Source: a virus. From it: a stretch of 58,848 nt of DNA. The notes under the pieces were generated by a model. That model was not told the DNA's origin. It worked only from the letters and a program-made list of their open reading frames with translations, and made no database searches. This document shows, one piece after another, positions 1 through 58,848 of this stretch. The DNA lies in IMG/VR virus record IMGVR_UViG_3300045974_000247, positions 1 through 58,848 of that record. One strand, given 5' to 3'. Each line of letters starts with the position of its first letter. Position 1 is the stretch's first letter. The position numbers and the translations under genes are program-made.

Positions 1-127
1 CGTGGCAGGGACGCACCGTGTCGTGGTGAGACGCGCTTTCGCGTATTCGATAGCTCAGAAGCTCGGAAGGTCACCGCTGACCTTGCAGAGAATCGAAGAC
101 CGCCATTCGTACTCAGCCGCCTCTCGG
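1..127. repeat. Left copy of 127-bp terminal direct repeat
   Basis: Identical to 58722-58848. 127 is a common maximal k-mer length of short-read assemblers, so this is probably the overlap of a circular assembly and not a biological terminal repeat. It shows that the contig is closed. Confidence 0.95.
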
Positions 128-882: not shown

Positions 883-2274
883 TCAGCGGGCCCGGGAGCG
901 TGGGCGCTTGGACCCTGCCGCGCGCTCCCGGAGAGCTTCCAGCAGGGCCCTCTGCGTGCGGTCCTTCTTGGCGACCCCTCGCATCACGACCTCATCGACG
1001 GTCCCGCGCGCGACCACGTGGTGGACCACTACGCGCTCCCGCTGACCCTGCCGCCAGATGCGTCGGATGAGCTGCTCGTAGTTCTCCAGGTCCCACGTGA
1101 GCGAGTGCCAGATGACGGCGGCTCCGACCCCCTGGAGGTTGAGCCCGTGTGCGACGCTCTGCGGCTGCGCGAGGAGGACCGGGAGCCCGCCAGCGTTCCA
1201 GGCATCCTCGACCTCACGCGCCTTCTTCGCAGTCACCCCGCCCCCAAGGTACGGTGCGCCGGGGAAGGCGCGCTGGAGCCGCTCCAGGTCGTGCTGGAAC
1301 TCATACGCGATGAGCGCGGGCTTCCCCGACAGCTCCTCGACCAGCTCCTGGACTGCCTCGGTCTTGGCCTCGTGGAGGTGGTGGAGGGTGCGGACCTTCG
1401 GGTCGGACCCGTACAGCCCGCCGTTCGCAATCTGCCGGCACTTGATCGTCGCAGCCCCCACGTTGGCGGCGGTGACGATGCCCTCCTCGACCTGCGCCAG
1501 CAGGAGCTTCTCCATCTGGTCGTATGCCTTGCGCGCCTCGGGGGGCAGCTCGACCTCGACCGTGTTGTTGATCAGCGGCGGCAGCTTGAGGTAGTCCTCC
1601 CCCCGCATGCGGAGGACGAGGGGCCGCAGCCGTGCGTAGATGCGCTCAGCGGCATCCTCCTTCGGCACCCAGGTGTAGCCCCCGTACCCGGTGGCGTCGA
1701 AGTAGGCGTTGCGGAAGTGGGTGATGTAGGAGCCGAGCGCGTTGCCCTGGTCGAGGAGGTAGACCTGCCCGAAGAGGTCCATGAGCCCGTTGGGCGCTGG
1801 GCTCCCGGTGAGGATGACCCGCCGGTTGAACTCGTGGAGGTGCGGCCGGAGCGCCTTGAACCGCTGCGTGTTGGTGTGCTTGAACCGGGTGGACTCGTCT
1901 ACCACGAGCATGTCCCACTTGATGCGGAGCCGCTTTGCCTCCTTGAAGAGCCAGCCAAGCCCCTCGGGGTTGATCACGCTGACGTGGTGGGGCTGCTCCA
2001 GGAGCATCTGCTTGTCCTTGCCGTGGAGGACGTGGACGTTGAGCCCCCGGAACTCGTCCCACTTCTGCGCCTCGCGCGGCCACGTGCTCTCAGCGGGCCG
2101 GAGCGGGGCGATGACCAGCATCCTCTCGGCCATCCCCGATTCCAGCAGGACCTTGAACGTGGCGTAGGTGATGCTGGTCTTCCCCAGGCCCGGGTCGAGG
2201 AACAGCCCCCCACAGGCCTGGCCCAGGAGGAACTTGATGGCCTGGTCCTGGTATGCGTGCGGTTGGTACTGCAT
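883..2274 (-). CDS. SNF2/DEAD-type superfamily 2 helicase
   Basis: A 463-residue ATP-dependent helicase or DNA translocase. Motif I is PGLGKT at 28-33, motif II is VVDES at 124-128 (DES in place of DEAD), motif III is LTGSP at 155-159, and a C-terminal motif VI (RRIWRQGQ) lies near 410. The RecA-like pair ends in a basic tail (KRPRSRAR). Such helicases commonly accompany a VRR-NUC nuclease in phage replication/recombination modules, and that nuclease is three genes upstream. It is the last gene of the minus operon, starting 1 bp before the end of its upstream neighbour's stop codon. Its exact substrate (fork, D-loop, protein-coated DNA) cannot be told from sequence. Confidence 0.9.
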   Translation of the reverse strand: MQYQPHAYQDQAIKFLLGQACGGLFLDPGLGKTSITYATFKVLLESGMAERMLVIAPLRPAESTWPREAQKWDEFRGLNVHVLHGKDKQMLLEQPHHVSVINPEGLGWLFKEAKRLRIKWDMLVVDESTRFKHTNTQRFKALRPHLHEFNRRVILTGSPAPNGLMDLFGQVYLLDQGNALGSYITHFRNAYFDATGYGGYTWVPKEDAAERIYARLRPLVLRMRGEDYLKLPPLINNTVEVELPPEARKAYDQMEKLLLAQVEEGIVTAANVGAATIKCRQIANGGLYGSDPKVRTLHHLHEAKTEAVQELVEELSGKPALIAYEFQHDLERLQRAFPGAPYLGGGVTAKKAREVEDAWNAGGLPVLLAQPQSVAHGLNLQGVGAAVIWHSLTWDLENYEQLIRRIWRQGQRERVVVHHVVARGTVDEVVMRGVAKKDRTQRALLEALRERAAGSKRPRSRAR

Positions 2275-2893: not shown

Positions 2894-3232
2894 TCACAGC
2901 ACGTCCCCCAGGTCGAACTTCGTGGGCGCGTACCGCACCCGGTCCGCGATGATGGCGTCGATGATGTTGCGACCCGTGGCCTTGTCGTCGATGACGAACA
3001 CCCACTGGCCCAGGTCGATGAGCTGGTTGATCATCATCTTCTGGAGGGGCGTGGGCTCCTCCCCCACGCGCTTGTACTCGATGAGGAAGTGCTTGCCGTT
3101 GGGCGCCCAGAACCCTCGGTCAGGCCAGCTCCTCGCGCCCAGCCCGTTCATCTTCCGGACCAAGCAGCCGAGCCGCTTGGCGTACTGGACGTTGTCGTTC
3201 TCAGCGATGCGCTCCGGCTTAGTCTTGGCCAT
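2894..3232 (-). CDS. VRR-NUC domain nuclease
   Basis: 112 residues, the usual size of a stand-alone phage VRR-NUC, a PD-(D/E)XK nuclease that cuts branched or flapped DNA. The catalytic residues are visible: Asp38 in RSWPDRG, then the E-x-K pair in FLIEYKR (Glu52, Lys54), with an N-terminal Glu helix (ERIAEND). It sits with the SNF2 helicase and a zinc-finger gene in one overlapping operon, so it probably processes replication or recombination intermediates. Confidence 0.88.
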   Translation of the reverse strand: MAKTKPERIAENDNVQYAKRLGCLVRKMNGLGARSWPDRGFWAPNGKHFLIEYKRVGEEPTPLQKMMINQLIDLGQWVFVIDDKATGRNIIDAIIADRVRYAPTKFDLGDVL

Positions 3233-3344
3233 GTCGGTCCCTGTTGTGTCGGTCGAGCGCCCGGAGGAGGAGACACCCCGTCAGGGCAGAGATGGAGAGG
3301 CTGAGTAGCCCAGCCGCTGCGAGGCGCAGTATGGAGCTAATCAT
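3219..3344 (-). CDS. 41-residue membrane microprotein
   Basis: ATG overlaps the end of the preceding gene (ATGATTAG). The peptide has one hydrophobic helix (LAAAGLLSLSISALTGCLLL) followed by a charged tail (RALDRHNRDRHGQD), so N-out/C-in insertion is plausible. The hydrophobic part holds an LTGC tetrad that resembles a lipobox. It overlaps the VRR-NUC start by 14 bp. It fills an otherwise empty gap in a gapless operon, which is the main support. Confidence 0.45.
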   Translation of the reverse strand: MISSILRLAAAGLLSLSISALTGCLLLRALDRHNRDRHGQD

Positions 3345-3618
3345 CGAACACCCGCAGGGACGGTCCCATGCCGAGCGACTTGACCTCCAGCTGCTCGAAG
3401 GACACGACCTCGATGCGGCTCCCGTTGACGAGCCGGATGACGTGCCGCGCTCGGGTGGAGCCCCCGACGTGCTGGGCGAAGACCCAGAGCGCGTCAGCGT
3501 TCCATCGGACCCGCTGCACGTTGGGCACGACGATGAGCACCACGGCCCCAGCGGTCTCAGAGGCCATGAGGATGGCCCTGAGGCAGGCTCGGGTTGTCTT
3601 CCCCGTGGACCGGCTCAT
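3337..3618 (-). CDS. Short P-loop protein that stops at Walker B
   Basis: 93 residues. Starts almost directly with a Walker-A-like SRSTGKTT (2-9), has a hydrophobic strand VVLIVVPN, and ends LRVFDD, which looks like the aspartates of a Walker B strand. The chain therefore seems to hold only the first half of a RecA-like fold. No continuation of a helicase or terminase is seen in other frames downstream. It could be a truncated ATPase or a small inhibitor/NTPase family. ATGA overlap with the upstream gene. Confidence 0.6.
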   Translation of the reverse strand: MSRSTGKTTRACLRAILMASETAGAVVLIVVPNVQRVRWNADALWVFAQHVGGSTRARHVIRLVNGSRIEVVSFEQLEVKSLGMGPSLRVFDD

Positions 3619-3821
3619 CGCGCCCCTCCCTTCCGGCGGGGAGGGCGCGCAGAGGGCTGAGGCAGCGGCTCCTCAAGCGTCGGCCACGCGGGGTTGGGGG
3701 GCGTGTACCCGATCAAGAGGGTCGCGCGGCAGGCGCTGTTGGAGCACTCCCAGCGACCCTTCGGGTTGGTGGAGGTTAGTGTCCCCGCCACGCAGATTGG
3801 ACAGGTGTAGCTCGCGCTCAC
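3615..3821 (-). CDS. Zinc-ribbon protein
   Basis: 68 residues from a GTG start overlapping the hemerythrin stop (GTGA). CPIC and CSNSAC form two Cys pairs about 20 residues apart, a rubredoxin-like zinc ribbon, followed by a Pro-rich tail. No specific function recognised. Confidence 0.6.
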   Translation of the reverse strand: MSASYTCPICVAGTLTSTNPKGRWECSNSACRATLLIGYTPPNPAWPTLEEPLPQPSARPPRRKGGAR

Positions 3822-4219
3822 GACAAGACCCCTTCCTTGATCCAACGGGTGACCTTCTGGTCCTCCTCCTTCAGGTGGTACTCTACCCAGGCGCGCAGCC
3901 GCTTGACGAACTCACGCAGCTCCGGCTCCCCGCCCCGCGCCACCCGCGCGGAGTAGTGCGTCCAGACATCGAAGAAGCGCACATGCTCGCGTCGATGCTC
4001 TGCGAGAGCACTCTCTGGGTAGCGGACCTGCTCCATGAGCAGCTCCTCGTCCAGGAAGTGGGTGGTGAAGTGGGACCGGAGCCTGAGCATGGCCACCGCG
4101 ATGCGCCCATCGCTCAGTACCTCGGTCCCTTCCAAGTCGTCCAACACGTCACAGACAGTCTCGTGCTGCCGGTCGATGAGCCCGTTGCCGGTCCTCAGCG
4201 CCTCATTCCATGTCCGCAT
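3818..4219 (-). CDS. Bacteriohemerythrin
   Basis: A 133-residue four-helix-bundle protein that binds O2 (or senses O2/NO) at a non-haem di-iron centre. All seven ligands of the family are in place: His19 (IDRQH), His54 and Glu58 (HFLDEE), His75 and His79 (HRREH), His115 and Asp120 (HLKEED). Spacing and length match bacterial single-domain members (130-150 aa). It sits inside the minus operon between a zinc-ribbon gene and a Cas4-like nuclease, with no signal peptide, so it acts in the cytoplasm. Possible jobs are oxygen delivery, sequestration of iron/O2, or protection of iron-sulphur enzymes; these are inferences. Confidence 0.93.
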   Translation of the reverse strand: MRTWNEALRTGNGLIDRQHETVCDVLDDLEGTEVLSDGRIAVAMLRLRSHFTTHFLDEELLMEQVRYPESALAEHRREHVRFFDVWTHYSARVARGGEPELREFVKRLRAWVEYHLKEEDQKVTRWIKEGVLS

Positions 4220-4247
4220 CCCACGTCCCCCTCCCCCGCCCGTACTG

Positions 4248-4991
4248 CTAGAATCGGCAGGGGCCTCCGTTGTTGGCGCTGAACGCGCACCAGCGACAGT
4301 AGTTGCCGGGGCGCGGGTTGAACTTCGGGTCGTTCATCATCTTGGACGCGCGCTTGTCGAGCGCCTTCTGCGCCTTGGGCAGCTGCACCAGCGTCAACTC
4401 CCCGGCCTCAGAGGTCACCGTCTGCCCCTGGTCCGTGAAGATGAGCTCTGCGCGGGTCCGCTCCCCGAAGCCAGCCGTGAGCGAGGCCACCGCGTAGCCC
4501 ATCAGCTGGTCGTCGAAGACCTCTCCGGGACGCAGTTTCCCGGTCTTCCAGTCCTTCACCACGGACAGCTTCGGCTCGGGGAAGTGGAGCACGTCCACCT
4601 TGAAGCGCACGTACACGTCCTCATCGGTCCAGCCGGTCATCTTCCAGTCCTGAGTGAACGCCAGGTTGAGCTCCACGCGGACCTTCTGCTTGGCGTAGTC
4701 GGCCTTGAGCAGGCGCAGCTCCTTGGCGACCTTCTTGAGGTCGGGGTGGATGGTCTTCCGCTGCCCCCGGATGTACATCTCTGCCTCCTCGTGGAGGGCT
4801 GTCCCCCGGGCGAGCGCGGGAGCCTCGGGGGGCTTCTCACGACCGCACTTGTCGCAGGTGCCCCGCTTGTTCAGCCGCCCCTTGAAGCACTTGGGGCAGA
4901 GGTAGTCCACGCGCTCATACTTGGTCCTGCGTGGGCACTCCTCATACGCCTTCAGCGCGGAGGGGGACCACGTCTTGATGACCGACGACAT
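4248..4991 (-). CDS. Cas4/RecB-like PD-(D/E)XK exonuclease
   Basis: About 247 residues from the ATG at 4991, which has AGGAG 7 bases upstream; a GTG one codon earlier is the alternative. The N-terminus WSPSALKAYEECPRRTKYE is typical of the family, as are the catalytic strands with VDVLHF and VKDWKTGK (Asp and Lys of the D-x-K signature). Cys in the N-terminal ECP motif and a C-terminal YCRWCAFS...GGPCRF could hold a Fe-S cluster as in Cas4/AddB. An extra Cys4 zinc knuckle (CPKC, CDKC) is inserted at about 32-50. Likely processes DNA ends in replication or recombination. It overlaps the polymerase stop codon. Confidence 0.85.
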   Translation of the reverse strand: MSSVIKTWSPSALKAYEECPRRTKYERVDYLCPKCFKGRLNKRGTCDKCGREKPPEAPALARGTALHEEAEMYIRGQRKTIHPDLKKVAKELRLLKADYAKQKVRVELNLAFTQDWKMTGWTDEDVYVRFKVDVLHFPEPKLSVVKDWKTGKLRPGEVFDDQLMGYAVASLTAGFGERTRAELIFTDQGQTVTSEAGELTLVQLPKAQKALDKRASKMMNDPKFNPRPGNYCRWCAFSANNGGPCRF

Positions 4992-6823
4992 CACTTGACT
5001 CCTTTCAGGTCGCCCCAGTTGGGGCCTTGCTTCGCATCGCTGAGCATCGGGACATCGAACTCAACAGACTCCATCGCCTCCCGGAGCACCTCCAGCTCCT
5101 TCGCCATGGCGCCCTTGGGCGCGCTGACGTTGATCTCGTCGTGGACCGTGACCAAGAACCGGCCATCCTTCCGCACCTCGTTGTACCTGATGACTGCCTC
5201 CTTGGTGCAGTCGGCAGCGGAGCCCTGGATGAGGTAGTTGAGGAGCTTGTACTCAAACGTCTGCTCCCGTCCGTTCCGTACCACCGGCTCCTCGCAGTAG
5301 TACAGCCTCCCGCCCCACGTGCGGATGGGCTTGTCCTCCTTGGCCTTCCTCCGGAGCCCCTGCTCCAGGGCCCGGAGCCCGGGGATGGCCGAGCGCTGAG
5401 CGCCCTTGAGGAGCCGCGCCTGCTCGACCGAGACACCGAGCGCCTTGCTCAGCTTCCCCATCCCCATCCCGTAGAGCATGCCGAAGTTCAGGACCTTGAC
5501 CGCGCGACGCTCCAGCTGCGTGCCGGTGATGCCGGCGATGGACGCCTTCACGAAGTCATGCACGTCCATGCGCGGCTCCTCCCGGTACGCAGTCAGGAGG
5601 AGGTCATCCTCAAAGTGCGCCAGGATGCGCAGCTCCTGCTGGTTGTAGTCCCGGTGACCGAACAGCTGACCCTTGTCGGGGAGGCAGTAGCGTCGGATGA
5701 GCGGCAGCTCGGGGAGCTTCGGGACCTTCGGGTGGCTGTACCCGTCACCCTTGTCGTCCCACGTCTTGGGGATGTTCTGGAAGTTGGGTGAGCAACTCAG
5801 TCGCCCAGTCCGCGCGCCAGCGCCTCCCCCCGCGTGGTAGCTCTGCCGCACCTGGTTCCAGTTGGTGAAGATGTAGCCGTTGTTCCTCTCGGCCACCTCG
5901 GCCCACGGCCCCATGAACGTGCGCATCGCAGTGCCGAGCCGGGAGCGGTACTGAAGCGCCACGTACACGCGCGGGTCCTTGAACATCCCCACGCTCAGGT
6001 TCTCCTTCGCCACAGAGGGCTTCCCCGTGTCCGTGGGCACGAAGTCCTCCTCAGCGACGTGCCCCCGCTCGATGAGCGCTGCGGCCAGCGACTGGTCGGA
6101 GTCGATGTTGATGTCTCCGAGCTGCTTGGCGAGCCAGCGGTCCACGCTCGCCTGGGCGAGGGTGTACGCCTTGATGTCGGCCTGGAGCTTGGGCAGGTCC
6201 ACGCGGATGCCCTCCGACTCGTTGGCGAGGAGGACGGGGAGCAGCCGACGCTCCCGGTCATACGCCAGCTTCATCTCCCGGTCCAGCTTGGGGTACAGCT
6301 TGTCGTGGAGCTTCTTCGTGCGGACCACGTCACCGATGGCGTAGGGCCCGACGATGGACGCGGGGACCTTGGAGATGAACGCTCCGGCTCCCTTGCGCCC
6401 CTTCGTGAGCCCGTGGGCGATGACCCAGTCGGCCACGGCATCCTGCTCCTCGGGCTCCATGCCGAGCAGCCGCTTGGCGCTGGGCTTCAACGAGAGGTTG
6501 GGGGCGTGGGGGTCGGAGAGGAACAGGCTGAACATCGTGTCGTGGAACCGCTCCCAGGGCGGGAGCGCGAGCCCCAGATGGGCCTGGGCCACATCGAGGT
6601 CGAACTTGGCGTTGTGGAAGAGCAGCTCCTTGGTCTTCCAGAGGTCGGTGAGCACGCGCTTGGCCTTGGCCAGCGTCGTGTTGTTGCCCTCGGGGTGCCC
6701 CCACGCCAGGTACACCGGCTTGCGGCCGGGCTCCAGGATGGCGACTCCAACGGGCTTGGGAGGGTAGTTGGGACGCCCCTCGATGGCGTCGGTCTCAAAG
6801 TCCACGACGGTCACAGCGGCCAT
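4991..6823 (-). CDS. polA: Family A DNA polymerase with 3'-5' exonuclease
   Basis: 610 residues, the usual size for a phage Pol I-like replicase without the 5' nuclease domain. Exonuclease motifs: DFETD (8-12), HNAKFD (70-75), Y161..D165. Polymerase motifs: TGRLS..NFQNIP near 339-352, motif A DYNQQE from Asp392, motif B RRAVKVLNFGMLYG (439-452), motif C VHDE (560-563). Phe447 occupies the position of E. coli Phe762; in viral ecology Tyr or Phe there is linked with virulent phages. If the base-modification proposal is right, this enzyme would also have to accept the altered dNTP. Confidence 0.95.
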   Translation of the reverse strand: MAAVTVVDFETDAIEGRPNYPPKPVGVAILEPGRKPVYLAWGHPEGNNTTLAKAKRVLTDLWKTKELLFHNAKFDLDVAQAHLGLALPPWERFHDTMFSLFLSDPHAPNLSLKPSAKRLLGMEPEEQDAVADWVIAHGLTKGRKGAGAFISKVPASIVGPYAIGDVVRTKKLHDKLYPKLDREMKLAYDRERRLLPVLLANESEGIRVDLPKLQADIKAYTLAQASVDRWLAKQLGDINIDSDQSLAAALIERGHVAEEDFVPTDTGKPSVAKENLSVGMFKDPRVYVALQYRSRLGTAMRTFMGPWAEVAERNNGYIFTNWNQVRQSYHAGGGAGARTGRLSCSPNFQNIPKTWDDKGDGYSHPKVPKLPELPLIRRYCLPDKGQLFGHRDYNQQELRILAHFEDDLLLTAYREEPRMDVHDFVKASIAGITGTQLERRAVKVLNFGMLYGMGMGKLSKALGVSVEQARLLKGAQRSAIPGLRALEQGLRRKAKEDKPIRTWGGRLYYCEEPVVRNGREQTFEYKLLNYLIQGSAADCTKEAVIRYNEVRKDGRFLVTVHDEINVSAPKGAMAKELEVLREAMESVEFDVPMLSDAKQGPNWGDLKGVK

Positions 6824-7056
6824 GACTCTCCTCGCAGCAGTGCGGCGCGCTCTTGCTGGGCGCGCAGTTTGGTGTAGCGTCCGTGGAGGCGGCTGATGAA
6901 GAACACCCGTCGCCTCCCGCGCATCTCCGACTGCAACAGCTGGCGGAGCGCGGTCAGCGACAGGGTCTTCAACTGCTCGTTGAGCAGCTCCTGGGAAGCG
7001 AGGAGCTGCTCAACGGCCACCGCCGACAGGAGGAACTTGTCGGTGGTGGCGGGCAC
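6811..7056 (-). CDS. Hypothetical helical protein
   Basis: 81 residues from a GTG start that overlaps the upstream TAG by one base, and overlapping the polymerase start by 13 bp. Predominantly helical, with a Leu-rich first half (VEQLLASQELLNEQLKTL) and a basic second half (MRGRRRVFFISRLHGRYTKL). Position suggests an accessory protein of the polymerase, but no family is recognised. Confidence 0.6.
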   Translation of the reverse strand: MPATTDKFLLSAVAVEQLLASQELLNEQLKTLSLTALRQLLQSEMRGRRRVFFISRLHGRYTKLRAQQERAALLRGESWPL

Positions 7057-7904
7057 TAGAACTTGCCCTTGCCCTTCTTCGCGGCGGGGGCCTCGGCAGC
7101 GGGCTCCTCGTCAGCCTGCTTGTACTCCTGCTCGATGGCGGCCATGGCCTCCTCGCGCCGCGCCTCCAGCCCGTCGATGAGCACGGGGCTGATCGGCTCG
7201 CGCGCGGCCCAGGTCACCTTGAACTGGGACCGCTTGTCCTCGACGCAGTCCACGTCGCTGATGGTGAGGAGCGGGTGGAGGCTGTTGCGGGCGAGGTTGG
7301 TCACGTAGTCGGTCCAGCCCTTGCCGCTCGTCACCGGGAGCTTGAGCAGCGCCCAGCTGGCCGTCTTGACCGTGTCCTCGTCCACGTCGGCGGGGAGCGC
7401 GAGGAGGCGCCACCGGTTCTGGCACGCCTTGCCCTTGCTGTCCTCCTTGGCTCGAGCACCCAGCAGCTCCTCGGAGGCAGCGGACCCCCACTGGTTCATC
7501 GGGCACTCGGAGCAGCTCTCCGGCTTCGTGTACTCCCCGCTGGGCTTGCCCTTGGCGTTGAGGACCGGGTAGCCCTTGGCCGACTCGTGCGGCCGCATCT
7601 CCCCCTCCGTGCGCCCGAAGGCGTAGCAGCACGGCGGCGTGCGGTCGTCGGGGTCGAACTTCTTGTCGTACATGTCGTTCTCACGGATGTAGTCGAGGAC
7701 GATGAGGCCCACGGGCCCGTCCACCTTCGTGCCGCCGAGCTTCATCCCCGTCTGGGAGAAGCTCATCACGTTGGACGTGGGCGGTGGCACCGACTCCGCT
7801 GCCATCTGGGCATACTTGGCATACTTCTCCTCCAGGCTCCCCGGCTTGGCGAGAGTCTTGCCCTTGACGGGCACTGCGAGCGCTGCGGTTTTCTTGGTCG
7901 CCAT
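7056..7904 (-). CDS. Conserved phage Cys-rich protein, possible ssDNA-binding protein
   Basis: 282 residues. A three-part Cys pattern, PPCCYAFG (about 90), SCSECPMN (about 130) and KACQNRWRLLAL (about 160), defines a family found beside phage replicases, sometimes annotated as ssDNA-binding protein. The C-terminus is low-complexity (acidic then KKGKGKF), like the flexible tails of SSBs although basic at the very end. Immediately upstream of the polymerase gene. The SSB role is an inference from context; the presence of a metal site is likely. Confidence 0.6.
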   Translation of the reverse strand: MATKKTAALAVPVKGKTLAKPGSLEEKYAKYAQMAAESVPPPTSNVMSFSQTGMKLGGTKVDGPVGLIVLDYIRENDMYDKKFDPDDRTPPCCYAFGRTEGEMRPHESAKGYPVLNAKGKPSGEYTKPESCSECPMNQWGSAASEELLGARAKEDSKGKACQNRWRLLALPADVDEDTVKTASWALLKLPVTSGKGWTDYVTNLARNSLHPLLTISDVDCVEDKRSQFKVTWAAREPISPVLIDGLEARREEAMAAIEQEYKQADEEPAAEAPAAKKGKGKF

Positions 7905-8832: not shown

Positions 8833-9069
8833 TTACTTGGGCACCCCGGGTGGCTGAGCGATGCGCTCTGTCTCGACCTCGATGAGCTTGTCGAGGAAGT
8901 GCCGCGCCTTGGCGAGGTCCTGGAGCCCGTTCTTCTTGCGCCAGCGGTACACGTACTTGATGATCTGGGCCTCCATGTACGGGATGTCGTTGGCGAGCAC
9001 GAAGTCCCAGTGCTGAATCTCGGAGCGGTAGTGCTCCCCGCCCACCTGCGTCTCATTGGCCTTGCTCAT
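8833..9069 (-). CDS. DUF3310 protein (SaV-like nucleotide kinase family)
   Basis: 78 residues from the ATG at 9069 (ATGA overlap); the upstream extension is Pro/Arg-rich and rejected. Shows the family signature: GGEHYRSEIQHWDFVLAN, then helix IKYVYRWRKKNGLQDLAKARHFLDKLI. Members are annotated as nucleotide kinases, but the chain has no P-loop and direct evidence is thin. The neighbours (nucleotidase, TS-like enzyme) fit a role in DNA precursor supply. Confidence 0.88.
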   Translation of the reverse strand: MSKANETQVGGEHYRSEIQHWDFVLANDIPYMEAQIIKYVYRWRKKNGLQDLAKARHFLDKLIEVETERIAQPPGVPK

Positions 9070-9593
9070 CGGAGCTTCTCCCATTCGTAGCTGAGGTGTT
9101 CGCACATCGACGACACTCCCTTGATCTCGTGCCGCGCGGTCTCCAGGTAGCTCAGCGCGCGGATGAACATGAGGCTGAGCCTCTGGGTCTTGTTCCCCAG
9201 CCGACGCTCCCGGAGGCACGTCCAGACCAGGTCGAGGGTGTCCGCTGTCTTGACGATGAACCCCTCCAGGTCCCCCAGCATCGGGATGGGGAGGGAGTGC
9301 TCAGCCACGAACACCTCCTCCATGCGGTCGAGGAGCGCGGACATGTCGGGGCTGGCGCGCTTGACGGGAGCGGGGATGTCCCCCGTGTCCACCTCTGGAG
9401 CGTCGTGGTAGAGGAGTGCCTGGAGCACGGGCCCGGGAGCTACCCCGTTGAGCTCGCACAGCTCCATCGCCACGACCATCGAGCCGTACACGTGGCGGGC
9501 GATGGTATGCTGCTCCACCGTCCGCACCGTGTGCAGGCGCACGAGGTCCCCGGCTTCGTACAGCGCCTCCATCCGCTTCAGGTTGGCCTTCAC
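9066..9593 (-). CDS. HD-domain 5'-deoxynucleotidase, YfbR-like
   Basis: 175 residues from a GTG start (GTGA overlap). HD metal site: His29 (TVEQHTIAR), His63-Asp64 (LLYHDAPE) followed by the YfbR hallmark DTGDIPAPVK, and a later Asp in KTADTLDLV. YfbR removes the 5' phosphate from deoxynucleoside monophosphates. Phages use such enzymes to drain unwanted dNMPs or provide dUMP precursor. It directly follows the TS-like gene, fitting a joint role in pyrimidine pool control. Confidence 0.88.
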   Translation of the reverse strand: MKANLKRMEALYEAGDLVRLHTVRTVEQHTIARHVYGSMVVAMELCELNGVAPGPVLQALLYHDAPEVDTGDIPAPVKRASPDMSALLDRMEEVFVAEHSLPIPMLGDLEGFIVKTADTLDLVWTCLRERRLGNKTQRLSLMFIRALSYLETARHEIKGVSSMCEHLSYEWEKLR

Positions 9594-10609
9594 TTGCCCC
9601 TCCTCGACAGCCACTCCAACGCTGCGTGACGCCAGTCGAGGGCAGAGCACTTGCGCGCCTCGGGTGGACTCTTGAGTCGCCAGGCTTTCCACAGGGGCTT
9701 GACGACGTTGTCCCAGAACGGGGTCTGGTACTCCTCCACGCTCGGGTCGATGCCGTGGTCCCAGAGCCGGAAGAAGTGCTGCATGTCGAGGTCCCACTCG
9801 ATGCAGTCCGCGGCCATCGGGTAGTGCGCGGCCAGCCCGCGCGTGTAGAGGTCCGGGGCAGGCTTGACGAGCTTGGTCGCTTCGTAGACCGGCCCCCGCT
9901 CCTTGACGCGGCTGTACACGGCTCCCCCGGGCCCCTCGGTGTAGACGTGGAGGCTGTCGCTGACCTGGGTGTAGGGCCCGACCTCGATGCCGAGCTTGTT
10001 GGCGATGTACTCCTGGAGCATCGACATGTGCACGACGTTGGCCCCGTAGGCTCCCCAGAGCATGTCGTTGGAGCGGTTGCACACCGTCATGTGCAGCTGG
10101 TCGGCCCGCACCTTGAAGTAGATGTGCGTGTTACAGGGCAGGTCCCGACTGGTCGAGCCGCCTGCCCCCTCCGAGCTGACTGCGTCCCCGTTGGGCGACC
10201 ACATCGCCACGACTGCGCGCCGGTCCTCCGGGTTCTTGAACAGCGCGTGGGTGACGTGGGTGAGCTGGTCGAACCCGAACCACTCGCGCCAGCGGAACCC
10301 GTAGGCTCCGTGGAACAGCTCCCCATCGTCGCTGAACTCCGCCATGCGGGGGTTGAAGACCCGGAGGAACCCGACATCGTTGCGCCCCTCCAGCATCCAG
10401 AGCCCCTCAAAGAAGTGGAAGAAGGGGTTGGCGTCGCGCTCCGGGGAGAACAGGACCCGTTCCTGGGGCCGGCTGTACACGGTGCTGACGGGCTGAGGGA
10501 CCTCGATGACTGGGCCTCCCCGGGAGTGACGCTCCACCCCCTGCTCGGCCATGAGCGCCATGCCGAGCGGGAGGGCTTCGTTGACGTTGCGGACGTTGAG
10601 GACGATCAC
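9590..10609 (-). CDS. Thymidylate synthase-family enzyme (TS or dUMP hydroxymethylase)
   Basis: 339 residues from the GTG at 10609 (GTGA overlap); the ORF extends to 10759 without a better start. Core of the TS/pyrimidine hydroxymethylase family: FEGLWML (Glu68, Trp71), RRAVVAMW (Arg130-131), catalytic Cys159 in DLPCNTH, CNRSNDMLWG (Arg179, Asp182), and Asn191 where TS binds the uracil ring. The Asn argues for dUMP rather than dCMP as substrate. Both TS and dUMP hydroxymethylase fit; the adjacent hypermodification-type gene makes the second worth testing. Confidence 0.85.
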   Translation of the reverse strand: MIVLNVRNVNEALPLGMALMAEQGVERHSRGGPVIEVPQPVSTVYSRPQERVLFSPERDANPFFHFFEGLWMLEGRNDVGFLRVFNPRMAEFSDDGELFHGAYGFRWREWFGFDQLTHVTHALFKNPEDRRAVVAMWSPNGDAVSSEGAGGSTSRDLPCNTHIYFKVRADQLHMTVCNRSNDMLWGAYGANVVHMSMLQEYIANKLGIEVGPYTQVSDSLHVYTEGPGGAVYSRVKERGPVYEATKLVKPAPDLYTRGLAAHYPMAADCIEWDLDMQHFFRLWDHGIDPSVEEYQTPFWDNVVKPLWKAWRLKSPPEARKCSALDWRHAALEWLSRRGK

Positions 10610-10830
10610 TTGGTCTCCTGGAACCCGTCGCACGAGCAGTCGCCGCACGGACCCTTGTCCCCGCGCTGGCGGGTGTAGAGGTGGTCCCCGAGCCGGTGGC
10701 CGCACTCGCACGTCTTCGCGCACGTCGCGCACTTGGCCGGGTCCTCGGCATGTGAGCACTGGACCGGCTCGACAACGGGGGTGGTCTGGGGCACTTCGGA
10801 CACTGCGTCAGGCTTCGTGATCTTGGCCAT
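10606..10830 (-). CDS. Small Cys/His zinc protein
   Basis: 74 residues with two parts: CATCAKTCECGHRLGDH and GDKGPCGDCSCDGF. The C-x-CGH...H...G-x-C-x-C arrangement recurs in the lysis-region gene at 49054-49233. Lies between the TS-like gene and the glycosylase-fold gene, overlapping the former (GTGA). Probably a zinc-binding accessory protein. Confidence 0.65.
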   Translation of the reverse strand: MAKITKPDAVSEVPQTTPVVEPVQCSHAEDPAKCATCAKTCECGHRLGDHLYTRQRGDKGPCGDCSCDGFQETK

Positions 10831-10832
10831 CG

Positions 10833-11693
10833 CTACTCCTCCTTGGGGGGTTGGTACTTGGAGCGTGGGCGACCCTCCCCGAGTCGCACGCGCTCATACT
10901 TGTCCAGCTCACACAGGCAGAACTGAATGTCGTGGGCAGTGAGCCGCCCTCCTCCTGGGAATGTCTCGAGCCACCGTGGCTGAATCTTCTCCAGCAGCGC
11001 GCGGATGAGGACCACGCCCTCGTCTGTACGGATGCCCTTCGTGAGCGGGGCCTTGCGCAGCCGGTTGAGTCCGCGCCTTGCCCCCGGGCCGGTGGGCGTC
11101 CAAGTCTCTGCGTCCTTCACCGGGTGGCGCCGCCAGAGCAAGTAGTCCTGGAGCACCTCCTTCGCCATGAACCCAGCGCCACCGAACCCGTGGACCTCCT
11201 GCATGACGTTGAAGCCAGCCTCCCACGTGTTGGTTGCCTCGATGGTGCTGACGATGTCCTCGGCACGGTCCCAGAGCGGCGCCAGGTACTCGTCCCCGAC
11301 CACCTTGTACTTGCGGACGCCTGCGTCACCGCCCCTGATCATGTACGCGCCGGTCCAGAACGTCTTGCCGGCGCGCTCGCACTCCTCCTCCGCGCGCTTG
11401 ATGCGAGCGGTCGAGTGAGCGCCCAACCAGCCGAGCGCGTCAGACGCCGCCACCGTGCCCGTGAAGCGTCGGAGCGCGCAGTTGTAGAGGGCCACGTGGA
11501 GCGGGGCCTCGCTGTACTTCTGATACACCTTGAGGAAGGCCTGCGTGGTCCGGTCGTGGACGCGCTGGACGTTGGTGAACTTGTACGTCTGGAGAATCTT
11601 GTCCTTGGTCCACGGCGCTGCCTGACCTCCGAGCTTGCGGAGCCGGATGTGCTCGCGCTCCTCGATGTACTTCCACAGTGGCTTGGCGTTCAC
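10833..11693 (-). CDS. Thymine-hypermodification type DNA-glycosylase-fold protein (aGPT-Pplase / HMUDK-helical-like)
   Basis: 286 residues. N-terminal signature EREHIRLRK..G..APWT (12-29) then YKFTNVQRVHDRTTQ (37-51), a helix-hairpin-helix segment VHGFGGAGFMAKEV (167-180) as in DNA glycosylases, and C-terminal LCELDKYERV.LGEGRPR. This is the pattern of the families linked to alpha-glutamyl/putrescinyl thymine synthesis, which transfer a group to activated 5-hydroxymethyluracil in DNA. No P-loop is present, so any kinase step must be elsewhere. Starts the 11693-to-883 gene block, 17 bp from a palindrome. Family assignment is from remembered patterns; substrate unknown. Confidence 0.65.
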   Translation of the reverse strand: MNAKPLWKYIEEREHIRLRKLGGQAAPWTKDKILQTYKFTNVQRVHDRTTQAFLKVYQKYSEAPLHVALYNCALRRFTGTVAASDALGWLGAHSTARIKRAEEECERAGKTFWTGAYMIRGGDAGVRKYKVVGDEYLAPLWDRAEDIVSTIEATNTWEAGFNVMQEVHGFGGAGFMAKEVLQDYLLWRRHPVKDAETWTPTGPGARRGLNRLRKAPLTKGIRTDEGVVLIRALLEKIQPRWLETFPGGGRLTAHDIQFCLCELDKYERVRLGEGRPRSKYQPPKEE

Positions 11694-11713
11694 GTAAACG
11701 TCCTTTCTCTGGC

Positions 11714-11729
11714 TAGGGGGTTCCCCCTA
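11714..11729. promoter_or_regulatory. Palindrome between divergent genes
   Basis: TAGGGGG-TT-CCCCCTA, perfect 7-bp arms, in the 70-bp gap between the minus gene ending its start at 11693 and a plus-strand small ORF at 11764. Its position fits an operator or a promoter element for one or both. Confidence 0.5.
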
Positions 11730-11763
11730 TAGTGGTTGGTGCGGGCAGGCGTAGTCTTTCTCA

Positions 11764-11913
11764 ATGACCTACCAAGTTGTTGTCGCCGCCCAGAACAAGA
11801 ATGTTGTCGTCAAGGTTGACGCCTCCAACGAGCAGTCCGCGAAGGAGATTGCGAAGTGGCTGGTGGCGCACGCCCAGCACCTCCAGGCGCACGGGGTCCA
11901 AGCGAAGAAGTAG
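11764..11913 (+). CDS. 49-residue plus-strand ORF inside the minus operon
   Basis: Starts MTYQVVVAAQNKN and ends QAHGVQAKK. Composition is balanced and protein-like (Val, Ala, Lys, few Pro/Arg), with GC3-rich codons like real genes here, and a strand-helix layout. No clear ribosome binding site (CTTTCTCA before ATG). It overlaps the 3' part of the minus gene 11810-12208 tail-to-tail, so at most one of the two is well constrained there. Confidence 0.45.
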   Translation: MTYQVVVAAQNKNVVVKVDASNEQSAKEIAKWLVAHAQHLQAHGVQAKK

Positions 11914-12208
11914 CGTCACGGGGCGCCAGAGCCTCCTTGAGCCTGAGCAGGGGTACGGCCAGGTGCGCTACCATACCAAGCGGGTCATCAGGAGCAGCCG
12001 CCACCTCGTCGAGCACGTCCTGTGCCGCCTTGCGCAGTCGAGTGATCTCCTTGCTCGCGCAGTCGCAGTCGGTGTATCCCTCGCAGCCCTCCTCGTGGTA
12101 GCTCTCGGGGGGCGCTCGGTTGCGCGCGTCCTCCACACACCCCGGACAGGGCAGCTCCGAGCCCGGGGGCCGGTTGTGTCGGGTGCAACCGTACACGCTC
12201 TTGGTCAC
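11810..12208 (-). CDS. Cys-rich hypothetical protein with poor C-terminus
   Basis: 132 residues from a GTG (GTGA overlap with the upstream stop). The first half looks real: CTRHNRPPGSELPCPGC, then CEGYTDCDC, a possible two-zinc module, and a helix KEITRLRKAAQDVLDEVAA. The last about 35 residues (SLGPRAPGGAGRAPPATSQSPS) are antisense to the plus-strand ORF at 11764 and look non-native, so the true 3' end or the reality of that tail is doubtful. Confidence 0.5.
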   Translation of the reverse strand: MTKSVYGCTRHNRPPGSELPCPGCVEDARNRAPPESYHEEGCEGYTDCDCASKEITRLRKAAQDVLDEVAAAPDDPLGMVAHLAVPLLRLKEALAPRDATSSLGPRAPGGAGRAPPATSQSPSRTARWRRQP

Positions 12209-12402
12209 GACATCACCAGGGGCCGGTCCTTGCGGTCCGGGTGCTGCCCGCACCACTCGGTGGGGCGCGCGGGGATGCGGATGGGGATGATCTGGACCTG
12301 TCCCGCCCCCTGCGGGATGGGCATGGCTCCGGGAGGATTGAGGCGGCACTCGCCCCCGCCCAGCGGGTAGAAATACGGGCACGTCTGGCACGTTGCGGAC
12401 AT
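12205..12402 (-). CDS. Small Cys-cluster protein
   Basis: 65 residues: CQTCPYF, GECRLNPP, then EWCGQH, four Cys in the order C-x2-C...C...C that occurs in a common group of small phage and proteobacterial proteins and could bind zinc or Fe-S. Stands 3 bp after the dehydrogenase stop codon. Function unknown. Confidence 0.65.
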   Translation of the reverse strand: MSATCQTCPYFYPLGGGECRLNPPGAMPIPQGAGQVQIIPIRIPARPTEWCGQHPDRKDRPLVMS

Positions 12403-12405
12403 GGG

Positions 12406-13134
12406 CTACCTCGATGCGTCGAACATCGACGCGATGGTCTCATCGATCAGGCGTGCGTTCTCGCGCACGCAGTGCCCCCCAATGGGGCCCGGCATGTAGC
12501 TCAACCAGGGGCGCGCGACCTCGGGCCGTCCGAGCTTCGCATACCCCTCGTTGTACGTCTGGTTGGCGTGCGTGTAGACATCGGCCAGCTCCACGCCGTG
12601 CTTCTTCGCCTGCTCGGCGCACCAACGGTTGACGAGGATCATCATCCCGTACTGCGTCGTGTCCATGAGCTTCAGAAGCTCGGTGGTCTCGGTGTTGGGC
12701 ATGATGTACGTCGTCACCCCCACGACCTGGAACGCTCTGGCGATGTCCTCAGCCTCCGGGCCCGCGATGTACTTGACGAAGCTCTGGATGCCGCGCGCGA
12801 GATGCGGGTGCGTCCCCCTGATGGGGGAGTGGTTGACTCCGAGCTTGCGACACGTACCCACCGGCACCGACGAGTGGATGACGGTGCGGTGCGGCTGGAA
12901 CAACTCCTCGTACAAGCGGACCTGGTCGAGGAACTGCGGCCCGTGGTACGGGAAGCAGATGTGCAGCTCGTCAGCCAAACCCTTCACGCGGATGCCCTGC
13001 GGTGGGTCATGTAGCACCCCCCCAATGACTGCCTGGAGCCCCCGACCAACCTCCCCCGCTCCCACGATCACTCGCTCCATGACCCACCCTTTCTCATCCG
13101 TGACCCTGCGTGTCTCTTCCGTGTGCAGACTCAT
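12406..13134 (-). CDS. Nucleotide-sugar dehydrogenase-like protein (UDP-Glc/UDP-ManNAc DH family, short)
   Basis: 242 residues from the ATG at 13134 (GGAGG 4 bases upstream); ATG at 13080 is an alternative. Rossmann start GAGEVG at 25-30, substrate-domain helix NTETTELLKLMDTT (147-160), and GPIGGHC with Cys222, the catalytic Cys motif of UDP-ManNAc dehydrogenases. Cellular enzymes are 400 aa or longer; here the chain ends soon after the Cys, so the C-terminal domain is missing. It may be a trimmed phage form oxidising or reducing a sugar nucleotide. A 199-bp gap separates it from the epimerase gene. Confidence 0.72.
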   Translation of the reverse strand: MSLHTEETRRVTDEKGWVMERVIVGAGEVGRGLQAVIGGVLHDPPQGIRVKGLADELHICFPYHGPQFLDQVRLYEELFQPHRTVIHSSVPVGTCRKLGVNHSPIRGTHPHLARGIQSFVKYIAGPEAEDIARAFQVVGVTTYIMPNTETTELLKLMDTTQYGMMILVNRWCAEQAKKHGVELADVYTHANQTYNEGYAKLGRPEVARPWLSYMPGPIGGHCVRENARLIDETIASMFDASR

Positions 13135-13333
13135 GTCGCCTCCCAGCCTCCCGGTTCCCCCGGGGGCTTCGTTCGATTCCCGCCCCGACCCTCCGAGAGG
13201 CCCCTGGCGCTCAGCCTCCCCGCAGCCCCGTAGGCTGGCAGAGGGCCCTACCCCCTCCACGAGGACCCTCAGACCCCCATCCGCACAGTGCCTAGGGGCT
13301 CCGGATGGGGGGTAGACCCCCCCGAAAGGGTAC
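13135..13333. promoter_or_regulatory. GC-rich spacer with a 19-bp element shared with 50277-50295
   Basis: The only large gap between 12402 and 18519 in the minus operon. Bases 13281-13299 (CCGCACAGTGCCTAGGGGC) match 50277-50295 exactly in inverse orientation. Both copies read GCCCCTAGGCACTGTGCGG along the direction of transcription of the adjacent genes. Other related words (GGGGCCTCTCGG, GCCAGGGGCC) also occur in both. It may hold a processing site, terminator or promoter. Confidence 0.55.
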
Positions 13334-14278
13334 TCACGCCAGCCCGGTCTTCCGGTACCAGCGCACCGTCTCTCGCAGACCCTCTCGCAGGCCGACTCCT
13401 GCCTTGAGACCGAGCCACTTGCGAGCACGCGTCACGTCAGCCACCGAGAGCCTGATGTCTCCGCCACGGAATGCCTCCTGCTGGCACGACGTGCGCTTGC
13501 GCTCGCTGGGCGTCAGCTGCTCCTCCAAGAGGTCGGAGAGCTGGAGGAGCGTCGTGCCCTTGCCCATGGCGACGTTGTACACGAGGTTGACGTGCTTGGT
13601 CGTGGCGGCGAGGAGGTTGGCGGTGACCACGTTGCTGACGTACGTGAAGTCACGCGTGGTCGTCCCATCCCCATAGATCACATACGGCTCTCCCGACAGC
13701 ATCCTCTTGATCCACCGGGGGATGACGGCGCTGTAGCTGCCGTCCGGGTCCTGGCGCGGACCGTACACGTTGAAGTACCGCAGCCCGACCGTGTCCATGC
13801 CGTAGCTCTTGCCGTAGGCCAGCGCGTAGCTCTCCACGCACTGCTTGCTCGCTGCGTAGGGCGACAGCGGGGCCCCCACGATGACCTCGCGCCGCTTGTC
13901 CCCCAGAGCGTCCCCGTACACGGAGGAGCTGGAGGCGTACACGAAGCGGCGCACCCCGTGACGCCTGGCGTGCTCGAGAACTCGCAGGGTCCCATGCGTG
14001 TTGTTGAGGTGAGTCGTCATGGGGTCCGCGATGGACCGCGGCACGCTGGGGAGCGCGGCCTGGTGGAAGATGACGTCCACGCCGCTGAGGTCGAAGTTGT
14101 CGTGGACGATGTCGAGCGGGAGCACGTGGAGCCGCGCGTTGCCCTCGTGACCCGTGAGGTTCTCCTTCCTCCCGGTCGAGAGGTTGTCGATGACGATGAC
14201 CTCCCAGTCGCGCGCGAGGCAAGCGTCAACGAGATGCGACCCGATGAACCCGGCACCGCCGGTGATGGCGACCCTCAC
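13334..14278 (-). CDS. NAD-dependent sugar-nucleotide epimerase/dehydratase
   Basis: 314 residues from a GTG (GTGA overlap). Extended short-chain dehydrogenase: GGAGFIG (7-13) for NAD, ASSSSVYG (115-122), and the active-site Tyr141-x3-Lys145 (SPYAASK). The SVPRSIADP...N...GTLRVLEHARR stretch resembles UDP-GlcNAc/UDP-Glc 4-epimerases of the WbpP type. Likely converts a UDP-hexose or UDP-N-acetylhexosamine. Clustered with a PIG-L deacetylase, a dehydrogenase and a glycosyltransferase, so the product is probably a donor for that transferase (inference). Confidence 0.88.
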   Translation of the reverse strand: MRVAITGGAGFIGSHLVDACLARDWEVIVIDNLSTGRKENLTGHEGNARLHVLPLDIVHDNFDLSGVDVIFHQAALPSVPRSIADPMTTHLNNTHGTLRVLEHARRHGVRRFVYASSSSVYGDALGDKRREVIVGAPLSPYAASKQCVESYALAYGKSYGMDTVGLRYFNVYGPRQDPDGSYSAVIPRWIKRMLSGEPYVIYGDGTTTRDFTYVSNVVTANLLAATTKHVNLVYNVAMGKGTTLLQLSDLLEEQLTPSERKRTSCQQEAFRGGDIRLSVADVTRARKWLGLKAGVGLREGLRETVRWYRKTGLA

Positions 14279-14637
14279 TTGGCACGCTCCTTCTTGCAGG
14301 CCGGCTGAGCCGGTGGGTTGAGGTTGAGACAGCTGATGCCGAAGCTCGTGACGTAGCAGACGATGCCGGGCCGGTTGAGGTCCTGGACCCGGTAGACCTG
14401 ACCCACCACGCCATCCGAGAAGATGACGTGCGCGGCTCCCGGGGGCCCGTCGTCCAGCGTGGCCTTGGAGCAGCCGATGAGCCCGCCCAGCAGGACGAGG
14501 AGGCAGAGGAGGATGAAGAGGAGCGCGGGCCAGTTGGGGCGCGCCCTCTGCCGGATGAGCTTGTCGATGCACACGGGGCAGGTCCCCGCCGTGCCGCAGA
14601 CGAGGCAGTTGGGCTTGATGACGGTCTTGTCGCTCAT
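14275..14637 (-). CDS. Membrane protein with N-terminal zinc ribbon
   Basis: 120 residues. CLVC and CPVC at about 11-22 form a zinc ribbon, followed by one strong membrane helix (ALLFILLCLLVLLGGLIG) and an outside/inside domain of about 70 residues with two Cys (VCYVTS, ISCLN) that could pair. ATGA overlap with the deacetylase gene. Function unknown; it might anchor the sugar enzymes, but nothing proves it. Confidence 0.6.
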   Translation of the reverse strand: MSDKTVIKPNCLVCGTAGTCPVCIDKLIRQRARPNWPALLFILLCLLVLLGGLIGCSKATLDDGPPGAAHVIFSDGVVGQVYRVQDLNRPGIVCYVTSFGISCLNLNPPAQPACKKERAK

Positions 14638-15215
14638 CGCGCCTCCACGATCAACTCCGGGTTGTGCTTGAGGCTCTCTGGCGGGTTGAAGTGCCAGAAG
14701 CGCCCCTGGTCCTTGAAGAGTCGGATGTGCTTGTACTTGTGGATGGTCGGCTTGAAGTAGCTCACCACGCGCATCCCCGACAGCAGGCGGTTGATCTCGG
14801 GGCTGTTGACCGTCATGGCGGCATACGGCTGGTCGAGGTAGTACTGGAGCCAGAAGTGCTGCGCTCCCGTGTGCCAGGCCTCGACAGCCTCGCGCACCTC
14901 GATATGGTCCGGGTGCTTGGGGGCGAGTGGAAGGAGGATGTGGCCGTGGTCCCCGCTGAGGTGGCTTGAGAGGAAGCAGCGGATGGCCTTGGTGCCGTCC
15001 CCCGGCTTGCCCCCGCCCCTCCGCTCCTTCGCCTCCAGGCCGCTCCACGAAGCCCCCATGGCCTTGGCGTATGCCTCTGCCTCGGGGCCGCGCTTCCTCG
15101 TGCCGGAGTAGACGGTGATGATGTGCACCGGGATGTTGTCCTTGATCCAGTTGGCGATGTGACCGCCCAGCGACAGGAAGGCGTCGTCAGCGTGAGGCTC
15201 GATGATGTGGATCAC
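14634..15215 (-). CDS. PIG-L/LmbE-family deacetylase
   Basis: 193 residues from a GTG (GTGA overlap). Zinc site: PHADD at 7-11 (His8, Asp11) and HPDH at 101-104 with His104. PIG-L enzymes remove N-acetyl groups from GlcNAc-bearing substrates. With an epimerase, dehydrogenase and glycosyltransferase around it, an amino-sugar pathway is suggested. The substrate might be a UDP-sugar or sugar already on DNA or protein. Confidence 0.88.
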   Translation of the reverse strand: MIHIIEPHADDAFLSLGGHIANWIKDNIPVHIITVYSGTRKRGPEAEAYAKAMGASWSGLEAKERRGGGKPGDGTKAIRCFLSSHLSGDHGHILLPLAPKHPDHIEVREAVEAWHTGAQHFWLQYYLDQPYAAMTVNSPEINRLLSGMRVVSYFKPTIHKYKHIRLFKDQGRFWHFNPPESLKHNPELIVEAR

Positions 15216-15664
15216 GAGTCATCCTCCGTGTCGAAGGGGATCAACGACAGGTTGGGGGTGTAGGGGAGCTGATGCACCGCCAAGCCCAGTTGACGAGCGG
15301 CAGCGACCAGTCTCTGCATCGGGTTGCGTTCCAGCTCCTTCTTTGCGTCGCTGAGGGCGCGTCGGGTGCCGTTGAGTTCATCTCGCAGCCGGTACACCTC
15401 GCTGATCAGCGCGCCCACCACGGACCCTCCGCGCTCTGCCCAGATGGCCAGCTGTGCGTCGTTGAACTTCTCCGGCGCTGCCGAGAGGGGGGCGAAGACA
15501 ACCGTGCCCTGTTGCAGCTCCAAGACCTCCTCAGGGGTCCAGTCCCCGTATGCTTCCAACGTCAGCTGAACCGGGCCAGAGATAACAGTCGCCTTCTGGC
15601 CCGCAGCGGTTCGCACGACCTGTGTGGGGCGGTTCATCCGCACCATGTCGATGACGCCCCTCAT
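15212..15664 (-). CDS. Hypothetical protein
   Basis: 150 residues, ATGA overlap with the glycosyltransferase gene. The middle carries a helix-rich region with a predicted coiled coil (EVYRLRDELNGTRRALSDAKKELER). The segment TPEEVLELQQGTVVFAPLSA is mixed alpha/beta. No family recognised. Its place between the deacetylase and the glycosyltransferase links it to the sugar cassette only by position. Confidence 0.55.
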   Translation of the reverse strand: MRGVIDMVRMNRPTQVVRTAAGQKATVISGPVQLTLEAYGDWTPEEVLELQQGTVVFAPLSAAPEKFNDAQLAIWAERGGSVVGALISEVYRLRDELNGTRRALSDAKKELERNPMQRLVAAARQLGLAVHQLPYTPNLSLIPFDTEDDS

Positions 15665-16491
15665 AGCCCCTCCGCGCCGAGCTTGAACGCCTTCTTCCAT
15701 GCGACCTTGACGTCGTTCATCGTGTCGCTCTCCATCCCGCCCCACGCCTTCTTCTGCACCACCGTCACGACCTCGGGGTACAGCGCGCCGAGCTTCGCTG
15801 CCGTGTCGCTCTGGAGCTGGGCCGTCCGGGCCCCCGCGCACCCTCCCGGAGCGTTGGCCGGTCCCGGGCTCGCGCGGTAGACGAGGGACACGACGTTGGG
15901 CTCGCCAGCGAGGAGCAGCTGGAGCGTCATGTTGAAGTCGGACATGGGCGACCCCTTGCCGATGCCCCTGGTGAACCGGGCCCCCGTGTTCATGACGGTG
16001 GGCACGTTGTAGGCCAGGCAGCAACCGAGCGCGCGGCCCACCTCGATGCTGTCGTGGAGGTTGGTGTCGTAGTCCCAGTGATGCTGGCGCATCCCCCACG
16101 CCGCGTGCGCGTAGTCCTTGAGGGATGTCTCGAGCCAGCCCAGCCCATCCAGCCACTGCTGCTCAGAGGTCGCAGTGAGAAAGCGCGGGTTGACCCCAGG
16201 GGTCATCGGCTGGCGGACGAGGAGCGTCGTGTCGTCATCGAGGAGGACGATGTGCTTGTGGCGCTGCTTGACTGCGTACTCCAGCATCCAGTCGCGCGTG
16301 GCGGCGAGCGTCATGCCGGTGGGGCGGTTGGCGGGGCACTCGATGGCCCCGAACCTTCCCTGCGCGAGGTGCGCCTTGACCTCCTCCTTGGGAACGAACA
16401 GCGTGGTGTTCTTCTTGGCGAGCGCGGGGAGGCTGTCCCACGTCTTCTGCTTCGACACTCGGCCCCTGGTAGCAATGTAGACTTGGATCAT
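15661..16491 (-). CDS. TAGT-like GT-A glycosyltransferase
   Basis: 276 residues from the ATG at 16491 with GAGAG upstream. Starts MIQVYIATRGR as in the TET-associated glycosyltransferase (TAGT) family. NRPTGMTLAATRDWMLEYA leads to the metal-binding HIVLLDDD (Asp85-87), a region with the GRALGCCLAYN stretch, and MSDFNMTLQLLLAG (183-196), the family's second acidic motif. TAGT enzymes are associated with sugar transfer onto modified bases in phage DNA; relatives also act elsewhere. Here it would use the product of the neighbouring sugar-nucleotide enzymes. Family match is from remembered pattern, not a search. Confidence 0.72.
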   Translation of the reverse strand: MIQVYIATRGRVSKQKTWDSLPALAKKNTTLFVPKEEVKAHLAQGRFGAIECPANRPTGMTLAATRDWMLEYAVKQRHKHIVLLDDDTTLLVRQPMTPGVNPRFLTATSEQQWLDGLGWLETSLKDYAHAAWGMRQHHWDYDTNLHDSIEVGRALGCCLAYNVPTVMNTGARFTRGIGKGSPMSDFNMTLQLLLAGEPNVVSLVYRASPGPANAPGGCAGARTAQLQSDTAAKLGALYPEVVTVVQKKAWGGMESDTMNDVKVAWKKAFKLGAEGL

Positions 16492-16498
16492 GGCACTC

Positions 16499-28524: not shown

Positions 28525-28548
28525 TTCAACAGCAACGGAGGCACAACC

Positions 28549-29289: not shown

Positions 29290-29319
29290 TCCAACCTGTA
29301 ACGCACTGGGGGCGTTCAC

Positions 29320-58721: not shown

Positions 58722-58848
58722 CGTGGCAGGGACGCACCGTGTCGTGGTGAGACGCGCTTTCGCGTATTCGATAGCTCAGAAGCTCGGAAGGTCACCGCTG
58801 ACCTTGCAGAGAATCGAAGACCGCCATTCGTACTCAGCCGCCTCTCGG
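58722..58848. repeat. Right copy of 127-bp terminal direct repeat
   Basis: Exact copy of 1-127. Marks closure of the circular contig and should be trimmed from counts of unique sequence. Confidence 0.95.

Follow-up and report, generated by a model that had tools for sequence, protein, structure and literature searches.

The window, by which we mean the whole 58,848-nt stretch of viral DNA analysed here (IMG/VR record IMGVR_UViG_3300045974_000247), encodes a genuine bacterial-type hemerythrin, located on the minus strand (positions 3818..4219) within the replication operon of a phage. We tentatively propose that the gene is an acquired accessory and that its product buffers or scavenges O2 in the infected cell. 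The identity of the protein as a hemerythrin is near certain, and its function is one that we infer.

The open reading frame starts with ATG and, as delineated by the reading frame itself, profile matches and a structural model, encodes a single-domain protein of 133 aa. Its codon-position GC (0.67/0.39/0.85) indicates a real gene in a genome of 66% GC, and its codon use lies inside the range of the genome. All of the di-iron ligands can be read in the translation (H19, H54, E58, H75, H79, H115 and D120), at exactly the seven positions listed by the sequence-only reading on which this analysis builds. Membership of the hemerythrin superfamily is borne out by scores, ligands and predicted four-helix bundle alike, with Pfam PF01814 giving 44.2 bits (E 3.2e-11; cut-off 25.3 bits) and NCBIfam TIGR02481 giving 72.6 bits (cut-off 51.75), each over nearly the full length of the protein. 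The bacteriohemerythrin subfamily model NF033749 also matches along the full length (E 2.8e-18), but at 66.3 bits the score misses the cut-off of 84. Because of this shortfall, the profile scores place the window hemerythrin within the domain family as a divergent protein, outside the NF033749 model. The previous designation as a complete bacteriohemerythrin is thus upheld as a complete hemerythrin with every ligand at the level of the superfamily profiles, the subfamily model being missed.

An AlphaFold model computed from a six-sequence input (pLDDT 81.7) retrieves bacterial hemerythrins as all eight of its best eight PDB matches (Z 14.2–15.2), above animal hemerythrins and unrelated helical bundles (Z 10–12.6). 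The DcrH-Hr and Methylococcus McHr structures are also found by sequence alone using phmmer against the PDB (E 1e-7 to 1e-6). DcrH-Hr shares with the window protein the fold (Z 14.8–15.2 over 126–128 residues), the seven ligands and a hydrophobic residue directly after the first histidine of the HxxxxD motif, where L116, following H115, occupies the position of DcrH I119. However, the two are only 22–23% identical, and DcrH-Hr is one domain of a sensor, whereas the window protein stands alone in a phage operon. Similarly, the Methylococcus capsulatus bacteriohemerythrin McHr (4xpx) is a single domain of ~130 aa with the same fold (Z 14.3), but is 20% identical and is a cellular protein from a methanotroph.

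The two ends of the record carry an exact direct repeat of 127 bp (1..127 and 58722..58848), and we therefore treat the record as a complete genome, circular and 58,721 bp long. Besides a replication module, its genes comprise those for a terminase, portal, protease and major head protein and for the tail; neither a Pfam integrase, which bears on the lytic-type label given by the sequence-only reading, nor a tRNA was found in the record. Judged by PolA, its nearest annotated relatives, ~45% identical, are Stenotrophomonas phage AXL3, Pseudoxanthomonas phage PW916 and an uncultured siphovirus. Elsewhere in the genome, we note a likely DNA hypermodification cluster (9066–16527) with a thymidylate-synthase-like protein, a 5-hmdU DNA kinase domain, a YfbR-like nucleotidase, a TET-associated glycosyltransferase, an NDP-sugar epimerase and a PIG-L deacetylase. 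A 2151-aa ORF in the tail region (35033–41488, plus strand), with a C-terminal glycoside-hydrolase-like match (phrog_2913), is perhaps a tape measure carrying a cell-wall enzyme domain. The longest listed frame (28296–29909, plus strand) is probably non-coding, with a third-position GC of 0.51, compared with 0.96 and 0.88 for the frames at 28549–29289 and 29320–29655.

The hemerythrin gene is embedded within a run of minus-strand genes. Upstream lie a conserved 282-aa replication-module protein of unnamed function (phrog_27714; 7056..7904), a DNA polymerase I family protein (PolA; 4991..6823, from profile matches) and a Cas4/RecB-like PD-(D/E)XK exonuclease (4248..4994), which has a PF12705 match and a Cas4-type cysteine motif (C20; CRWC...C) that may hold a 4Fe-4S cluster. 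Just upstream of the hemerythrin ATG, the sequence contains a purine-rich, Shine-Dalgarno-like stretch, GGGGGAGGGGG (4227..4237, minus strand), graded as a strong ribosome-binding site. At the other end, the hemerythrin TGA stop overlaps the GTG start of a gene for a small CxxC/C...C zinc-ribbon-like protein (3615..3821; 68 aa from this GTG, or 76 aa if translation begins at a TTG upstream), and because of this GTGA overlap the translation of the two is probably coupled. Further downstream follow a 93-aa protein that starts MSRSTGKTT (P-loop-like) and has no family match (3337..3618), a small endonuclease (phrog_93; 2894..3232) and an SNF2-like DNA helicase (phrog_62; 883..2274), which ends the replication module. 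The location of the hemerythrin gene in this operon suggests that it is expressed together with the replication genes.

Comparison with 80 IMG/VR relatives chosen by PolA indicates that the surrounding module is conserved and the hemerythrin accessory to it. Where complete enough, these relatives keep the order phrog_27714-like gene, polA, cas4-like nuclease, small endonuclease and helicase, with the endonuclease forming the conserved downstream edge of a variable slot whose extent, measured from the nuclease in 67 loci, ranges from an overlap to 2.5 kb (median 332 bp). No hemerythrin was found in the fetched loci of the 80 relatives, nor in 50 whole records that include AXL3 and PW916; the Axeltriavirus AXL3 and PW916 share the polA-cas4-endonuclease-helicase module with the window phage (PolA 45% identity), but neither genome has a hemerythrin. 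In one relative (L031), the counterpart of the zinc-ribbon-like gene directly follows cas4 with no hemerythrin between, an arrangement that we read as the state of the slot without the insertion. The hemerythrin gene is best described as accessory, acquired by the phage and housed in a variable slot within the replication operon, and it has the character of an auxiliary metabolic gene or moron, namely a host-type gene in a phage that is not conserved among its relatives.

Within a tree of 54 sequences, viral hemerythrins are scattered among bacterial ones, with 10 label changes, so that repeated acquisition by phages is likely, although not proven, owing to long branches and unsettled bootstrap values. 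The sister of the window hemerythrin (support 99/93, 34% identity) comes from an 83.6-kb phage contig (L128; IMGVR_UViG_3300045974_000167), where the gene likewise lies beside replication genes and overlaps a neighbour, in this case its upstream gene; after the hemerythrin come genes for an AAA ATPase, for replication initiation and for a DnaB-like helicase. The replication module of this contig is, however, unrelated to that of the window. No bacterial donor closer than 36% identity was found among ~300 genomes of one phylum and in a pattern scan of genome contigs, and a closer bacterial relative may exist since the bacterial sample is mainly from that phylum.

Catalogued phages yielded no counterpart. 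Using tblastn, six hemerythrin queries matched only three of 50,697 phage records, none of them a genuine phage with hemerythrin. The genes around hemerythrin in the two records examined are those of a bacterial chromosome: MT837110 has rpsF/ssb/rpsR, rplI and dnaB as neighbouring ORFs, and of two Acinetobacter contigs that share one match (CAKLQH020000030 and CAKLQF020000028), the one that was read has fur, argB and sbcCD. In addition, no PHROG family matched the hemerythrin, and Foldseek retrieved nothing from the viral structures of BFVD at E ≤ 0.001, a result that still allows for relatives. Phage hemerythrins are also undescribed in the literature searched, which left out most subscription papers and all preprints.

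Uncultured viruses present a different picture. A single-protein scan of viral contigs for hemerythrin found no relative, and a search with profile A2 added one further viral hemerythrin (L091), from a T4-like phage that also encodes ribonucleotide reductase and in which a 4Fe-4S ferredoxin gene comes after the hemerythrin. Scanning IMG/VR with a fixed-gap DNA motif for HFxxEExLM...HxxxH recovered 27 loci, all 27 matching a hemerythrin profile, and the same motif with the two-residue-longer spacing of the window protein recovered five more hemerythrins, giving 32 in total. Of the 27 motif records that were tested, 24 score above the Pfam cut-off and a terminase match, weak in one case, is present in 12, which places a terminase on at least 11 contigs; the largest records reach 313 kb, and the terminase-less contigs may include bacterial fragments. 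All seven ligands are kept in 27 of 31 viral rows, although only H19, H115 and D120 are independent tests because the motif itself fixes H54, E58, H75 and H79; the losses affect H115 (L118 and L125) and D120 (L113/L117). The statement of the sequence-only reading that oxygen-binding proteins are rarely reported in phage genomes therefore holds for annotated phages but not for uncultured viral contigs, where the search of viral metagenomes that it proposed reveals recurrent hemerythrins.

The neighbours of these other viral hemerythrins are mixed and point to no one pathway, with Fe-S or O2 genes appearing as scattered single cases among 90 neighbours. On a 208-kb contig with a terminase (L131:685-2125; IMGVR_UViG_3300020048_003360), the hemerythrin gene overlaps by 14 nt that of a 344-aa protein with an intact GGDEF motif, possibly forming a split O2-sensing diguanylate cyclase. 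On an 81-kb contig (L133:2636-4395; IMGVR_UViG_3300002026_000014), two tandem hemerythrins are directly preceded by a 2OG-Fe(II) oxygenase-like gene and have tail-like genes on their downstream side, with a third hemerythrin elsewhere on the contig (L124). From the genes read at L129, the hemerythrin adjoins a B12-binding protein. Together with the L091 ferredoxin, these single cases are suggestive only. An apparent pairing of hemerythrin with IMPDH in large phages was rejected, as the direct neighbours are a phosphoesterase, a GGDEF protein and others, and IMPDH-like genes are only nearby (L140 and L144).

Because the phage copy keeps its ligands, O2 binding is the likeliest activity, in line with the earlier expectation, which is likewise a prediction from the intact ligands. 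Bacterial hemerythrins of this kind reportedly bind O2 in vitro, and their expression in the O2-hungry Gluconobacter is reported to give faster growth (PMC12753109). Methanotroph hemerythrins have been connected with O2 delivery under low-O2 conditions (PMC12607906). In Campylobacter, the hemerythrins HerA/HerB, which are cellular genes likened here by reported function, are said to prevent Fe-S damage by O2 (PMC4257069). We suggest that the phage hemerythrin would be produced together with the replication proteins, take up two ferrous irons out of the host pool and bind O2 reversibly, catching it when it is scarce or surging and so acting as a buffer or scavenger. The energy metabolism of the host, and those iron proteins that oxygen harms, could thereby keep working during phage replication. 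Buffering or scavenging heads our ranking of functions, at somewhat less than even odds, ahead of a repurposed role, sensing and protection of the Cas4-like nuclease, in that order. As to an O2-dependent enzyme in the window phage, a search for 2OG-Fe oxygenases found none, and a Tet/JBP search gave no match, with its control also silent everywhere.

Intact ligands are no proof of O2 carriage, given that the Ferrovum Bhr-HD-GYP forms no O2 adduct (PMC8846402). The protein might instead be a repurposed four-helix protein that stores iron, removes NO or peroxide, or binds a host or defence protein, which we regard as unlikely but as the strongest of the alternatives to O2 buffering. The loss of a ligand in a few viral copies suggests that viral hemerythrins may include some with other roles, and the window protein is no more than 34% identical to its best match, but its retention of all ligands and of the hydrophobic residue by H115 would be needless for a mere scaffold. 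Somewhat less likely again is an O2 or redox sensor, in which oxidised iron in the hemerythrin would switch a host regulator or phage partner, as in DcrH-Hr or Bhr-DGC. Hemerythrin domains do sense redox in c-di-GMP enzymes such as VcBhr-DGC (PMC8846402), and the overlapping hemerythrin and GGDEF genes of the 208-kb contig would fit such a role; the window, however, has no fused or adjacent signalling domain, and the gene that overlaps its hemerythrin encodes the small zinc-ribbon-like protein.

The sequence-only reading had also suggested that the hemerythrin might protect an Fe-S cluster in the Cas4-like nuclease, and a dedicated role of that kind now appears improbable, whereas O2 supply to host metabolism and sensing, its other suggestions, may yet apply. 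The hemerythrin does adjoin, within one operon, a nuclease with Cas4-type cysteines, the T4-like phage places its hemerythrin before a ferredoxin, and HerA is reported to protect Fe-S enzymes in Campylobacter (PMC4257069). Yet the idea fails its simplest test because the nuclease, cysteines included, is retained in relatives that have no hemerythrin: a strict cysteine-pattern test is passed by 70 of 79 of their nucleases, the other nine being close variants, and none is accompanied by hemerythrin. Moreover, insertion into the variable slot explains the adjacency, and other viral hemerythrins seldom have Fe-S genes as neighbours. An assembly error joining host and phage DNA, or a useless passenger gene, has very little to commend it, for although phage-labelled hemerythrin records proved to be bacterial chromosome, the complete circular genome with its exact terminal repeat, the Shine-Dalgarno stretch and GTGA overlap, the conserved phage replication genes on both sides and the viral sister sequence all argue against the host chimera that had been named as a possible refutation.

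Phages carry host-type metabolic genes. The hemerythrin is a known kind of protein whose recurrent setting in tailed phages appears undescribed in the literature searched, and the searches made found no catalogued phage isolate that carries one. More broadly, and with greater reserve, hemerythrins may be recurrent, repeatedly acquired O2-handling genes of uncultured tailed phages, among them jumbo phages, that buffer, deliver or sense O2, with at least one 208-kb phage perhaps forming a split O2-sensing diguanylate cyclase. Their recurrence in many uncultured phages suggests that oxygen handling in the infected cell is something that certain phages do. With more than 30 viral loci carrying a hemerythrin, intracellular oxygen would become a target of phage manipulation, and one that is directly testable, since the optical signature of hemerythrins is simple and their ligand-dead mutants are easily made.
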